A stretch of 64,000 nt of DNA, taken from an uncultured Fibrobacter sp. Lineage in GTDB: Bacteria > Fibrobacterota > Fibrobacteria > Fibrobacterales > Fibrobacteraceae. The first letter of the stretch is position 1. Every line of letters starts with the position of its first letter. The DNA lies in NCBI GenBank assembly GCA_946408125.1, contig CAMJQW010000002.1:1-64000 (forward strand), in the 5' to 3' direction. Below the pieces are notes generated by a model. It was not told where the DNA came from, searched no databases, and saw nothing but the letters and a program-made list of their open reading frames with translations. The position numbers and the translations under genes are program-made. This document shows, one piece after another, positions 9,031 through 16,642 of the stretch.

Positions 9031-9540
9031 CTATTCGGCCTCGTACTTACGGACCACGTCCTCGTATCTCACGATCTCTTTGATAAGGGGATTCGGTTTT
9101 ATCTTGTAGGTGACTGCAGTACCGAAGTACTTGCAGGAATAACCGCCATCTGTTTTTGTTTCAGACATTGAAATGTCTACTAGGCCGTGATATCCCGAAG
9201 AGGGGGTTACGACGGTTGAGAAGAAGTAGACTTCGTTGCAGTGGTCCTGGGAGGTGAAGCCGACAGGGGCCAAAGAAACGATGGTCAGGTCGTTATCGAC
9301 ATCTAAAGCCTTCGGAATGGGGTACAGGTTGTCCGTGACAACCTCGTAATCCGTTTTCTTTTTCACGACAGGAGCAGGCTTGGCCTTAGGAGCGGGCTTT
9401 GCTTTAGCGACAGTTTTGCGCTTTGGAGCCGGGGCTTCTTCTTCGTCGTAGTCGTTGTAGGTTTCAAAGGAACGGGGTGCGCAACCTTCGAAAATGAATG
9501 CCATAAAGGCGCAAGCGAATAATGCTATAAACTTTTTCAT
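9031..9540 (-). CDS. Lipoprotein with one copy of an unrecognised cysteine-bearing domain
   Basis: The protein has 169 residues. A lipoprotein signal ends FIFEGC, followed by an acidic patch and a Lys/Ala/Pro linker (KPAPKAKPAPVVKKK) suited to spanning periplasm or peptidoglycan. The C-terminal ~75 residues carry a pattern: P-V-[FT]-x(4-5)-C, then GYHG(L/I)VD, then C-x(1-2)-[FW]-G. The upstream neighbour at 9551 has two more copies. The Shine-Dalgarno GAGGG precedes the ATG, and the gap to the upstream gene is ten bases, so the two genes form an operon. I know of no function. Confidence 0.78.
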   Translation of the reverse strand: MKKFIALFACAFMAFIFEGCAPRSFETYNDYDEEEAPAPKRKTVAKAKPAPKAKPAPVVKKKTDYEVVTDNLYPIPKALDVDNDLTIVSLAPVGFTSQDHCNEVYFFSTVVTPSSGYHGLVDISMSETKTDGGYSCKYFGTAVTYKIKPNPLIKEIVRYEDVVRKYEAE

Positions 9541-9550
9541 ATGGCCCTCC

Positions 9551-10321
9551 CTAATGATGATCGCAACAGCAGGTGACGCAGCAGCAGTTTTGTGCAGGTG
9601 CGGGGACTAACACTGTATCGGGTTTGGGAAGCGGAACTTTGATGATTTCAATGGTCCGCCTCTTTGTAACCGTTTTCTCGATGACTTCTCTGTGCTTGTA
9701 CTTTACCGCAAGCCCCCAGAAAGTGCAGACGTTTTTTCCATCGATTAACGATGGGTCGTACTTCATATCTATAATGCCGTGATAACCGGTCTGTTCGTTC
9801 GCGATGTTGAGTAGAAAGTCAACCTTGTGGCAATCGCCTTCGGTCTGGAATGTTACCGGCGTTATGCTTTCCACTTCGAGGAACGCGGAATCTGAATTAA
9901 AGAGCTTTTTTATGGCGTGGCTATTCTGGGCCGAGAACGGAGTGCTCTTGTTGGGGGGCAAAGCATAATTTTCGGAATTCTTGCTTGTATCCGGATTCAC
10001 TTTGAAAGACAAACCCAGTCCCCAGGATTCGCAGGAATAAGCATCGTTCTTTTTGGTTTGCTTGTAGTGATAGTCTACGATTGTGGAGTAACCGAGACCT
10101 TGCGATATGCTACTATGGTAGAGGTCCAGGATATCGCATTTTCCTTCGCCACTGTAAGTGACGGGGCCCCATTTGTCTATTTTGAATTCGTTGTAGTTTT
10201 CGACGGCCTTAGGGACTTTCAGCGAGTCTGAAAACTGCTCGGTGGGCTTTGCTTCTGCAAAGGCGGATGCCGCCAAAGCCAAGGCGACAAGGGATATTTG
10301 CTTAAGATATCTGTTTATCAT
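9551..10321 (-). CDS. Secreted protein with two copies of the same cysteine-bearing domain and a Cys-rich tail
   Basis: This 256-residue protein has a Sec signal peptide (ISLVALALAASAFA-EA). Two domains of about 65 residues follow (near 45-115 and 145-215). They share P-V-T-[FY]-x(4)-C, GY-x(3)-VD or GYHGIID, and C-x(1-2)-WG, matching the single domain of the next gene. The C-terminus ends in the unusual cluster NCCCVTCCCDHH, a plausible metal-binding or disulfide cap. A short A/T-rich stretch with TATTTT precedes the ATG and there is no Shine-Dalgarno. Export to periplasm or surface is inferred; the biochemical role is unknown. Confidence 0.77.
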   Translation of the reverse strand: MINRYLKQISLVALALAASAFAEAKPTEQFSDSLKVPKAVENYNEFKIDKWGPVTYSGEGKCDILDLYHSSISQGLGYSTIVDYHYKQTKKNDAYSCESWGLGLSFKVNPDTSKNSENYALPPNKSTPFSAQNSHAIKKLFNSDSAFLEVESITPVTFQTEGDCHKVDFLLNIANEQTGYHGIIDMKYDPSLIDGKNVCTFWGLAVKYKHREVIEKTVTKRRTIEIIKVPLPKPDTVLVPAPAQNCCCVTCCCDHH

Positions 10322-12637: not shown

Positions 12638-14665
12638 ATGAGAAACTTCTACTGGTTTTGGTTCGGTTTGACGCTCTGGAGTACCCGCCTGGTACTCCTT
12701 TGCGTATTGTACTTTACGGACGCGCCCACGGGCGGCCCGATTGTGGACCGCTGGTATAGATTTTTCCCCCATACGCTGGTAATTGAAGCCGGCGTCGTGA
12801 TGGCGCTTGCCTTTGCGGGCGGGCTGCTCTGCACGCTGTTGCGCGGGAAAGCGCGGAAAGTCGCGGGCATCGTTTTCCTCACTCTCGGAATCGCCTACAT
12901 GGTAACTGCCGGGACCGACGACGAGATTATGCGCTGGATGGGCCAGCACCTTTCGCTTTCGTTCATTACCACATACGCGCTTGCCGCATCGGACATGGGC
13001 CTGGTGGGCCGCGTGTTTTTGGGAGGTGCATGGCACTTTCTGCTCACGACGTTCATCGTGATTGCCGGGATTGTCGGGACGGTGTTTCTTTATAGGAAGA
13101 TGTTCGCGAAGTGGAGCGAAGAGACGGTTGTCGCGGTAAAGAACCGCGCATCTGGTGTGAACTTCGCGGCGGTCAGGAACTGGATCTGCCTTGGGATTGC
13201 GCTTGCACTCGCGATTACGGGACTCACGTCGAAGAACTGGTTCGCGCCGAGCAACATGCGCTGGAAGCGCATCGCGCCGGTCGCTTTTCGCCTAGTCGAC
13301 GAAATCAAGTACAAGCTCACGGAAGCCGAAAAGCGCGGCGACTATGCCGAGGGCATAGAGTTGCTCGGCGGCTTCCCCCTCGCAGATTACCCCTTCGAGG
13401 ATTGCACGGCATCCGCAAGCGAATGCGAACAATACCGTCAGCACGATATTGAGCAATTCAAGGCAAGGGGCGACCGCAAACCCGATATCATCTTCTTCGT
13501 GATAGAAACGTTCCGCGGCTGGACCGGCGACATCCGCGTCCCCGCGACATGCGAAAAGCTCCCGAACATCTGCAAGCTCGCGAAGAGTGGGCTTTACTTC
13601 CCGAACGCGCACAGCGTGGGCTACCCCTCCATCGAAGGGTTCCTCGGGATTCTCGCGGGCGTCTGGGCGCATCCGCAGACAACCTTCCTCTCGGACTACC
13701 CGAATACGCGCATGCGTGCCTTGCCCGAAATCTTGGGCGAAGCGGGTTACTACCGTATGGTGCTCACCGCCACCGAACCGAGTTTTGACAATTTGCACCC
13801 GTGGTTCGCCAAGTGGTTCGACTATTCGGAATACAAGCCCGAGAACCAGCACGACGTCCCCATCGCGAACCGTTTCCGCGAACTTTACGCAAAGCGCCCT
13901 GCAGGGCAACCGCTGTTCTTCGACTGGATGAGCACCACGAGCCACGTGCCGTTCTCGCTCCCCAAGGAATACGGCCCCACGCCGAGCGACCCCGAAGAAG
14001 CTTACGTGCGTTCGCTCGCCTATATGGATAGCGCCGTGGGCATCGTGATGGACGAAGTGGCCAAGGGTCCGAATGCCGACAATACTTTGTTCGTGCTCGT
14101 GGGTGACCATGCGTTTGCGAACAATGCACAGCATCGCGTATCGAATTTTATCGGTGGTGTGCATGACGGTTATACGTGGGTTCCGCTCATTGTCGCAGGC
14201 CCGAATATCGAACCGAAAGTCGTTACGACGCCTGTTTCGCAGGTGGATATTGCGCCGACGGTTCTAGATTACATCTTCCTTTATGGGGCTACCGAATTTT
14301 TTGTCGGGGAGAGCCTCCTTGAACTCGATCCGCCTGCTGCGTTCGATGGCGTAGACTACACCATCGTTTTCCATGCCGCGTCTAAACATAGGCCGGTATT
14401 CGCGTTCCGCATGGGCGACATGACGATGATTACCGACTCGGTCACCTACATTGCGAACATCCAGGATTCGACGCTCGTGAGCGCCTTCGAGACGGTTCTC
14501 GAACCCACCTGGGATACGTCGCACCCCGCCGAAGGATTTGTGACGGGCAAGGTTATCGAGAACGCTGCCGCCAAATACGCCGAGACATTCCGCAAGATGC
14601 GCGCTGCGGGCCATGCCTGGGAATACGTCATCAACAAGAACCTGCTGCTACCGCCAAAGAAGTAG
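12638..14665 (+). CDS. LTA-synthase-like membrane sulfatase-fold transferase (copy 1)
   Basis: This 675-residue protein has about five N-terminal transmembrane helices (to ~residue 200) and a large extracytoplasmic alkaline-phosphatase/sulfatase-fold domain. Visible landmarks are DIIFFVIETFRGW near 282 (metal-binding Glu), NAHSVGYPSIEGF near 327 (where the LtaS/MdoB nucleophile sits; probably the Ser of YPS), HVPF, and LVGDHAF near 488 (metal ligands). Relatives transfer phosphoglycerol or phosphoethanolamine from lipids onto glycans or lipid A. GAAAGGGGAAATG supplies a Shine-Dalgarno. It lies 21 bases after iorB and just before a close paralogue. Confidence 0.87.
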   Translation: MRNFYWFWFGLTLWSTRLVLLCVLYFTDAPTGGPIVDRWYRFFPHTLVIEAGVVMALAFAGGLLCTLLRGKARKVAGIVFLTLGIAYMVTAGTDDEIMRWMGQHLSLSFITTYALAASDMGLVGRVFLGGAWHFLLTTFIVIAGIVGTVFLYRKMFAKWSEETVVAVKNRASGVNFAAVRNWICLGIALALAITGLTSKNWFAPSNMRWKRIAPVAFRLVDEIKYKLTEAEKRGDYAEGIELLGGFPLADYPFEDCTASASECEQYRQHDIEQFKARGDRKPDIIFFVIETFRGWTGDIRVPATCEKLPNICKLAKSGLYFPNAHSVGYPSIEGFLGILAGVWAHPQTTFLSDYPNTRMRALPEILGEAGYYRMVLTATEPSFDNLHPWFAKWFDYSEYKPENQHDVPIANRFRELYAKRPAGQPLFFDWMSTTSHVPFSLPKEYGPTPSDPEEAYVRSLAYMDSAVGIVMDEVAKGPNADNTLFVLVGDHAFANNAQHRVSNFIGGVHDGYTWVPLIVAGPNIEPKVVTTPVSQVDIAPTVLDYIFLYGATEFFVGESLLELDPPAAFDGVDYTIVFHAASKHRPVFAFRMGDMTMITDSVTYIANIQDSTLVSAFETVLEPTWDTSHPAEGFVTGKVIENAAAKYAETFRKMRAAGHAWEYVINKNLLLPPKK

Positions 14666-14671
14666 GTGGCC

Positions 14672-16642
14672 ATGTCGCGCTTCTACTGGTTCTTCTTTGC
14701 GTTGATTGTGGTCGTTGCCCGCGTGGTGCAGCTCTGTGCGCTGTACCTGTGCAACGCCCCGACGGGCGGGCCGTTCGTGGCCGACTGGAACCGTTTTTTG
14801 TGGCACACGATGTTTGCCGATATCGGCATCATCATGGCGTCGGCATTCTGCCTGCAGGCTGTTTCGCTCGCTGTCAGGGGCCGCGGGCTGCGCATTGTAA
14901 AAATCGTTTCGGTCGTTCTTGCGGGCGTGTACCTTTTTGCCTGCGGTACCGATGACGAAATCATGCGCTGGATGAACCAGAGGCTCTCTTTCTCGTTCAT
15001 CGGGACTTATATGGGTGCCGTATCCGATACGGGCCTTGTCGCAAGTATTTTTAAGGAAGGCGCGTTCCATTTCCTGTTCAGTTTCTTTACGGTGGTCGCG
15101 GCCATCGTCGGTCTTGCAATCTTTTCGCGCGGGAACCGTTTGGAGCGTGCCGTCGCGCGTCCGTTCGACAAGACTTTCGTGGCGCCTGTCGTAGCGATTC
15201 TCGTTTTCGCGATTCTCGGCTGCACGTCGCACATGTGGTTCAATCCGTCTCACCGCCGCTGGCCGCGCATCAAGCCTATCCCGTACGTGCTTGTCGAAGA
15301 AGCCTTGCATGCATTCGAGTCGCTGGAACCGCCGGCAGATTACCGCGAAGGCATCCTTGCGCTGGGAGGCAATCCCGATGCGGAATATCCGTTCTGGCAT
15401 TGGGCCGGCGGGGATTCCGCGCATGCCGCCGCCGCAGAAGAGGCTAGCCTTGCCGCGTTCAAGAACAAGCCCCTCGAAGAGCGCCCGGACATCATCCTCT
15501 TCAATATCGAGAGTCTGCGCGGTTGGACAAGCGATATGCGCACCAGGAGCTGCATGCGTTTCCCGAACCTTTGCAAGCTCGTTTTAAGCGGTACCTACTA
15601 CCCGAATGCGCACAGCGTGGGCTATCCGTCCATCGAAGGTTTCCTTGGCATCATGGTGGGTGTGCCGAGCCATCCGCGCGCGACTTTCCTGTACAACTAT
15701 CCCAACACGCGCATGCGTTCGATTGGCGATGTGCTGCAGGCGGCGGGTTACAATAGGCAGGTGCTTTGCGGTGCCGATCCCAAGTTCGACAACGAACTCG
15801 TGTGGCAAGAGAAATGGTTCGACTATAACGAATTCAAGCCCGAGAACGACAACGATGTCGCGCTTGCCCGTCGCTTCGTGGAGATGTACCGCGAACGCGA
15901 TAAGGATAAGCCGCTGTTCTTCCATTGGATGAGCCGCAGTATGCATATCCCGTTCGACTTGCCCGCCGATATGGGCGAACGCCCTGCCGATGCAGAAGCG
16001 GCCTACCTGCGTGCCGAAGCCTACATGGATAGCGCCCTCGGGATTATTGTGAACGAGGTGAAGAACGGACCGCGCGCGAATAGCACTCTGTTCATTCTGG
16101 TGGGGGACCATTCGTACCCGAACAGCGCGCAGACGGCGGAATCGGAACGCCTCGGCAAGATTCACGAAGGCGAGACCTGGGTGTCGCTGATTTTCGCCGG
16201 AGCGGGTGCCGAACGGACAATGGACCTGCGTCCCGTATCGCAGGGAAGCATCGCCTCGTCGGTTGTCGACTTCCTCGGGCTCGACGTCTCCAACCATTTC
16301 ATGGGCGCAAAGCTTATTTCGAAAGCGGTTCCGCCCGATTCCGCGGATTCTTCTGTCGTGCCGTTACGAAAACTTCCCGGCGTGTATTCTTTCCGCCAAG
16401 GCGAAATCGCCTACCGTATCGATTCCCTCGCGTTCTTCGCGGGCATGGACGATGCTACGCCTGCTACCGTGCGCACCGCCAGTTGGAAAGCGGACTGGGA
16501 CGTTTCTCGCCCGGTCGAAGGATTCGTTTCGGGACGCAGCGTCACTGTGGATGAAAAGCTTCTCGCCGAGACAACCGCGAAGATGCGCGCTGCTGCGCGT
16601 GCCTGGGAATTCGTGGTGACAAAGAACAAACTGATGCCCTGA
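14672..16642 (+). CDS. LTA-synthase-like membrane sulfatase-fold transferase (copy 2)
   Basis: This 656-residue paralogue of the preceding gene has the same architecture: five N-terminal membrane helices, DIILFNIESLRGW near 273, NAHSVGYPSIEGF near 314, HIPF, and LVGDHSY near 478. The two share long identical blocks, so they arose by tandem duplication. Differences near the active site (IET versus IES, DHAF versus DHSY) suggest different lipid donors or acceptors. The ATG at 14672 is used, with GTAGGTGGCC as Shine-Dalgarno; an in-frame GTG lies two codons upstream. Only six bases separate it from copy 1. Confidence 0.87.
   Translation: MSRFYWFFFALIVVVARVVQLCALYLCNAPTGGPFVADWNRFLWHTMFADIGIIMASAFCLQAVSLAVRGRGLRIVKIVSVVLAGVYLFACGTDDEIMRWMNQRLSFSFIGTYMGAVSDTGLVASIFKEGAFHFLFSFFTVVAAIVGLAIFSRGNRLERAVARPFDKTFVAPVVAILVFAILGCTSHMWFNPSHRRWPRIKPIPYVLVEEALHAFESLEPPADYREGILALGGNPDAEYPFWHWAGGDSAHAAAAEEASLAAFKNKPLEERPDIILFNIESLRGWTSDMRTRSCMRFPNLCKLVLSGTYYPNAHSVGYPSIEGFLGIMVGVPSHPRATFLYNYPNTRMRSIGDVLQAAGYNRQVLCGADPKFDNELVWQEKWFDYNEFKPENDNDVALARRFVEMYRERDKDKPLFFHWMSRSMHIPFDLPADMGERPADAEAAYLRAEAYMDSALGIIVNEVKNGPRANSTLFILVGDHSYPNSAQTAESERLGKIHEGETWVSLIFAGAGAERTMDLRPVSQGSIASSVVDFLGLDVSNHFMGAKLISKAVPPDSADSSVVPLRKLPGVYSFRQGEIAYRIDSLAFFAGMDDATPATVRTASWKADWDVSRPVEGFVSGRSVTVDEKLLAETTAKMRAAARAWEFVVTKNKLMP

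Follow-up and report, generated by a model that had tools for sequence, protein, structure and literature searches.

The best-studied lipoprotein working through outer-membrane barrels is RcsF, the outer-membrane sensor lipoprotein of E. coli, whose disulfide-bonded domain docks on outer-membrane proteins (OMPs) and relays envelope damage. RcsF is known from enterobacteria, and our literature search found no paper linking Fibrobacter with RcsF-like proteins. Fibrobacter is a fibre-adherent genus, and the surface biology of rumen fibre degraders is poorly understood. Another protein relevant to the comparisons below is dodecin, a cytosolic flavin-binding dodecamer. A published structural comparison describes a DUF1471/RcsF/YbjQ fold group, whose entries are related to DUF1471 at DALI Z-scores of 5.3-6.8 (PMC4092069). 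YbjQ is predicted to bind metal, and YbjQ/DUF74 structures are pentameric (PMC4092069). DUF1471 proteins are small and exported, a domain of this fold is present in them either once or three times, and one of them, SrfN, binds sulfated polysaccharide (PMC4092069).

The window analysed here, which means the whole 64,000-nucleotide stretch of DNA from an uncultured Fibrobacter sp., contains a gene for an exported two-domain protein and, after a gap of 10 bases, a downstream lipoprotein gene. The following features were located:

9031..9540, minus strand: gene of the lipoprotein (169 aa, with a single copy of the domain); orthologues in genomes G024, G063 and G111
9481..9540, minus strand: signal peptide and lipobox of the lipoprotein (residues 1-20, IFEGC, putatively lipidated Cys20), called from the sequence
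9331..9480, minus strand: Pro/Lys/Ala-rich linker from lipid anchor to domain, 42% P/K/A (E. coli RcsF 44%)
9088..9288, minus strand: copy A of the domain (core of 67 aa), with Cys101 at 9238-9240 and Cys136 at 9133-9135 (alignment, profile searches and AF2 model)
9551..10321, minus strand: gene of the exported protein with two domains (256 aa), which precedes the lipoprotein gene on the same strand
10256..10321, minus strand: signal peptide of the two-domain protein, residues 1-22, predicted to be of the ordinary type (ASAFA/EAK) without lipobox
9986..10186, minus strand: domain copy B1, Cys62 at 10136-10138 and Cys97 at 10031-10033 (alignment and profile searches)
9680..9880, minus strand: domain copy B2, Cys164 at 9830-9832 and Cys199 at 9725-9727 (alignment and profile searches)
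9554..9589, minus strand: Cys-rich C-terminal tail of the two-domain protein, NCCCVTCCCDHH; relatives carry similar tails

The gene pair lies between a penicillin-binding protein 1C-like gene and one that resembles an indolepyruvate oxidoreductase gene (both identified by eye), and the latter flank is shared with G063 only. Intact orthologues of the two-domain gene were found in G063 and G111, and the gene is broken in G024. There (L002/L107, G024:C13:2242-2590) it has been degraded by frame changes: fragments of B1 and B2 are found in different open frames, the second half of B2 is missing, and the adjoining lipoprotein gene is intact.

The single domain of the lipoprotein and the two domains of the exported protein are homologous. 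Copies A, B1 and B2 align over 67 residues without a gap, and nine positions are identical in all of them (P, V, Cys, G, Y, D, Cys, G, K). When the lipoprotein was compared with the two-domain protein by BLASTP, copy A matched B2 with an E-value of 2e-13 (32% identity over 77 aa) and B1 with 1e-12 (27% over 85 aa). Copy-to-copy local scores were 14-23 standard deviations above those of shuffled sequences, and 0 of 5000 shuffles equalled them. These data, together with open reading frames that are as previously described, confirm the claim of the initial annotation that three copies are present in two adjacent exported proteins. The shared motif reads PV-x-[FY], five residues, Cys; GY-x(3)-[VI]D; C-x(2)-[FW]G. 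The version proposed earlier was right in substance, but the spacing from [FY] to Cys is always five and not 4-5 residues, and GY starts 15 rather than about 20 residues after this first Cys. The BLAST matches begin some 14 residues upstream of the proposed unit of about 65 residues (..PKALDVDND / ..PKAVENYNE / ..IKKLFNSDS), and therefore the repeat probably starts there and is nearer to 80-85 residues long.

When the window proteins and their relatives were scanned against Pfam and NCBIfam, no match reached the cut-off; for Pfam-A, the scanned set comprised six relatives and two consensus sequences in addition to the proteins of the window, at E <= 5-10. A weak match to BamK (0.088) was set aside since it falls on the signal peptide, and a match to DUF2718 (0.036) spans the linker and the domain start and is well under the cut-off of that family. 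Profile searches of the PDB sequences gave nothing at E <= 10, and a plasmid search returned no match. The absence of a named sequence family, as suggested earlier, is thus upheld for Pfam and NCBIfam, and a significant HMM match to a described domain, which the initial annotation had named as refutation, was not obtained.

Relatives were collected with profiles of increasing depth. A profile of the three copies found them in 6 of 41 genomes, a profile of nine copies in 33 of 126 genomes of the class, and a profile of 34 copies in 35 of 168 Fibrobacterota genomes, these 35 all being Fibrobacteraceae. Altogether, the profile searches gave 49 copies, every one from this bacterial family. A motif scan of 84,980 genomes based on a tighter alignment, which was limited by one short motif, identified three Fibrobacter loci (Fibrobacter sp. 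from horse faeces, F. intestinalis ATCC 43854, F. succinogenes RUG13981). The restriction to Fibrobacteraceae is therefore a result within Fibrobacterota, and coverage outside the phylum consists of the short-motif scan. Judged by sequence, the domain is a real and previously unnamed family that is specific for Fibrobacteraceae within its phylum. The family is fast-evolving and its divergence is high, with identities often at 20-30%. A lipobox is present in all proteins of the 49-copy alignment except the two-domain protein of the window type. In one divergent branch (L140, L142, L143, L145, L146), the domain is followed by a Lys/Ser-rich segment, and this in turn by a long acidic tail (EEEEEEEEDEE).

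Both cysteines are present in all 49 family members, the three window copies included, so that the constancy reported earlier holds for the whole family. Six of the 49 rows, which come from two separate parts of the tree, contain two additional cysteines, the first close to where strand 2 ends and the other two residues before the second invariant Cys in strand 3. These extra residues always occur together (6/6), as would be expected of a second disulfide that is acquired or lost as a whole, and this supports the reading of the invariant pair as a disulfide. On these grounds the domain is probably disulfide-bonded via its invariant cysteines, in line with the earlier suggestion. A DsbA-type thioredoxin (PF13462) was detected in 24 of 25 genomes including G000, the genome of the window; VKOR was also searched for and was absent.

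Cys-rich C-terminal tails (NCCCVTCCCDHH; ACVPCACVTCGCQPC) were observed at 9554-9589 of the window and in L110, L114 and L115, and together these cases fall into two separate clades. The initial annotation made no mention of the window tail at this point. The window tail resembles the ACVTCGC tails carried by one member of the pairs in G005, G076 and G082. As in these three pairs, exactly one member is Cys-tailed in the window, in G063 and in G111. Most family members have no such tail.

The RcsF/DUF4156/YbjQ group had been noted as a lead, on the basis of the sequence, before any structure was modelled. Both structures were modelled as monomers. An AF2 model of the lipoprotein domain of the window, calculated from nine alignment rows, showed a beta-alpha-beta-beta arrangement (DSSP: b26-39, a44-51, b60-71, b74-88) with a core pLDDT above 80, a mean of 68.5 and disordered ends. 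For the paralogue L043, which is closer to the family consensus, the same topology plus a C-terminal helix was predicted with a pLDDT of 88.8 and a pTM of 0.71. When we searched with the window-copy model in VIA-align, the YbjQ entries 1vr4 and 1y2i were at the top (Z 5.3 and 5.0), and dodecin, DUF74 and DUF1471 (2jna, 4.2) were also listed. The L043 model retrieved 3qkb/DUF74 (6.6), 1vr4/YbjQ (6.1), RcsF 2l8y (5.7) and 2y1b (5.6), dodecin (5.6), 1y2i (5.5), the BamA-RcsF complex 6t1w (5.0), DUF1471 2jna (4.5) and the Se-binding protein 2jz7 (4.2). Almost the same entries make up the published DUF1471/RcsF/YbjQ fold group (PMC4092069). All Z-scores within this fold group are below 8 and overlap with those of common arrangements. 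Matches to ornithine/lysine aminomutase, PilO and ribosomal proteins were set aside because their rmsd reached up to 10 A or because they were not common to both models. Foldseek gave no match at E <= 0.001 for either model, and a viral structure library contained no significant match.

Profile-profile comparison adds to this picture. In HHalign, the 49-copy profile scored 22.2 (P 0.0012) against Fibrobacterota YbjQ, compared with 14.6 for the best of 300 column shuffles and 9.1 for the reversed profile. The alignment (IIDI-meet..C-Y-GlAV-Y vs AIVNVRF..YGTAVKFK) is confined to the C-terminal half. Against E. coli RcsF, for which a single sequence was used, no signal was seen. Taken together, these results make it very likely that the domain belongs to the RcsF/YbjQ/DUF1471/dodecin fold group with its beta-alpha-beta-beta core. 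Since Foldseek alone is not significant, this assignment rests on agreement rather than on one strong score. As modelled, the domain is a new sequence family of an already known fold and not a categorically new fold. Consequently, the initial annotation went too far in regarding the domain as unrecognised at the structural level, since both models, of the window copy and of the paralogue, fall into this group. It took structural and profile-profile comparison to place the domain.

How closely do the individual members of this group resemble the window domain? YbjQ/UPF0145/DUF74 (1vr4, 1y2i, 3qkb) shares the beta-alpha-beta-beta core with both models, supplies the top VIA-align matches (Z 5-6.6) and aligns in its C-terminal half (GADAIVNVRF..YGTAV+FK vs ADDIINIRMEE..YSGLAVSY). 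However, it has neither a signal peptide nor the Cys pair, and it carries a long insert before the helix that is missing in the family. No match to YbjQ (PF01906) was found in any scanned member or anywhere in G000. Canonical YbjQ occurs in 67 of 161 Fibrobacterota genomes, separately from the domain family, and was not seen in G000, which is an 81% complete assembly. DUF1471 proteins (BhsA, McbA, YdgH) likewise export a small domain from this fold group, singly or in several copies per protein (PMC4092069), but they lack cysteines, are not lipidated, score lower (Z 4.5) and belong to a different phylum; no Pfam match to DUF1471 was found among the proteins scanned. Dodecin (1mog, 2vkf) has the same topology at a Z of about 5 but neither the Cys pair nor export.

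The likeness to RcsF extends to the architecture. Both proteins are lipoproteins in which a Pro/Lys/Ala-rich linker precedes a disulfide domain (a probable one in the window lipoprotein), and in both one Cys sits where the first core strand ends and another in the last strand. Among the window proteins, such a linker is present in the lipoprotein but not in the two-domain protein, and the linkers of most relatives are short. Moreover, relatives are often encoded next to barrel-like genes, and RcsF binds OMPs. In contrast to RcsF, which has four cysteines in two disulfides, the window copies have two; the additional pair in 6 of 49 members lies in what we take to be the region of the second RcsF disulfide. 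A further difference is the partner gene of the window, whose product is a soluble paralogue that has two domains and ends in a Cys-rich tail. Three RcsF entries were among the top 14 rows for the L043 model (Z 5.0-5.7, below 8), and none was listed for the window-copy model. The RcsF profile (PF16358) matched nothing in the Pfam-A set named above, which included six relatives and two consensus sequences besides the proteins of the window. The domain family is not RcsF itself. IgaA (PF07095) was absent from G000 and 30 relatives (31 genomes), with the control being detected in E. coli, and hence the downstream Rcs relay is not expected in them.

A barrel-like gene on the same strand, called heuristically by a signal peptide, an aromatic last residue and no internal transmembrane segment, was found within 250 bases in 15 of 35 relatives compared with 12 of 301 control ORFs of the same neighbourhoods. 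This enrichment corresponds to a Fisher P of 6e-10, although the cases are not phylogenetically independent. The barrel-like neighbours fall into about ten groups without phmmer link; those of L131 (OMP_b-brl_2) and L114 (Opacity) scored above the cut-off of a Pfam barrel family, and others gave sub-threshold matches. The L127 neighbour was discarded, since its last residue fits but the protein is repeat-rich and coiled-coil-like. No barrel-like neighbour was found for the window pair, for its orthologues in G024, G063 and G111 or for several remote clades. The suggestion of a lineage-specific surface system therefore holds in part: Fibrobacteraceae alone have the family within Fibrobacterota, the relatives other than the two-domain protein are lipoproteins and many lie near barrel-like genes, but surface exposure is conjectural and the window pair has no adjoining barrel. 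In three genomes, a conserved outer-membrane beta-barrel family (L110 4805-5596, L114 6846-7655, L115 5094-5858; FATWGYFPL.. start, C-terminal aromatic residue) is encoded directly downstream of a pair of domain-family lipoproteins.

The best explanation we can offer, with a probability of about 0.4, is that the domain is a Fibrobacteraceae RcsF/YbjQ-fold domain in lipoproteins that act as envelope sensors or OMP adaptors. The disulfide would staple strand 3 to the end of strand 1, the lipid would hold the lipoprotein in the outer membrane, and the Pro/Lys/Ala-rich tether would allow the domain to reach an envelope partner. For many relatives, the outer-membrane beta-barrel encoded alongside is the probable partner. 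In the branch to which the window belongs, the co-encoded soluble two-domain paralogue with its NCCCVTCCCDHH tail may take this place, and it could bridge to, or compete for, the envelope partner of the lipoprotein. By analogy with RcsF, envelope sensing or an OMP adaptor role might result, with signalling by a non-Rcs route. This docking mechanism, in which an outer-membrane lipoprotein serves as sensor or adaptor on a barrel or another envelope partner, is put forward tentatively. The broader scenario is somewhat unlikely: Fibrobacteraceae would have independently elaborated an RcsF-like sensing or OMP-adaptor system outside Rcs/IgaA, made of rapidly diverging disulfide-stapled lipoproteins each with its own co-encoded barrel, and in the window branch the barrel would have been replaced by the Cys-tailed soluble paralogue.

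YbjQ/DUF74 entries are the top structural matches, and YbjQ is the sole family with an HHalign signal. A YbjQ-type (UPF0145) oligomerising or metal-handling domain might have been relocated to the envelope. Binding of metal or thiols would then be the task of the Cys-rich tails, and the lipoprotein and the soluble protein would form a mixed ring rather than a sensor. The predicted metal binding and pentameric state of YbjQ proteins and the single tailed member of each pair in the window, G063, G111, G005, G076 and G082 suit this idea, which we consider unlikely: the family lacks the long YbjQ loop from strand 1 to the helix, Cys-rich tails are absent from most of its members, and two invariant cysteines in an exported domain suit a disulfide better than a metal site. 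Rather unlikely is a DUF1471 (BhsA/YdgH)-like exported multi-copy domain that serves in surface polysaccharide binding or in adhesion and biofilm formation without signalling. The small exported DUF1471 proteins with their one or three copies, here one or two, the polysaccharide binding of SrfN and the fibre-adherent habit of the genus point in this direction. Against it, most family members are lipid-anchored, 2jna scored below YbjQ and RcsF (Z 4.5) without a Pfam match, and DUF1471 domains lack the cysteines (PMC4092069).

It is quite improbable that the resemblance merely reflects a common two-layer arrangement and that Fibrobacteraceae invented the domain separately, as an unrelated structural or scaffolding element. 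Z-scores below 8, the absence of significant Foldseek and HMM matches and the confinement to one bacterial family within the phylum are what such an origin would lead one to expect, but the models of two different members gave the same ranked fold group and the HHalign signal for YbjQ exceeded 300 shuffles.

If the sensor or adaptor reading is true, non-Rcs barrel-paired lipoproteins of RcsF-like predicted fold in a distant phylum would suggest that this fold is a general envelope adaptor. The family also provides names and a testable structure for several 'hypothetical lipoproteins' of rumen fibre degraders. Elsewhere in the window, adjacent to the indolepyruvate oxidoreductase-like genes, two neighbouring genes (12638-14665 and 14666-16642) encode paralogous membrane-bound proteins of 675 and 658 aa, which by eye are probably sulfatase/LtaS-like.
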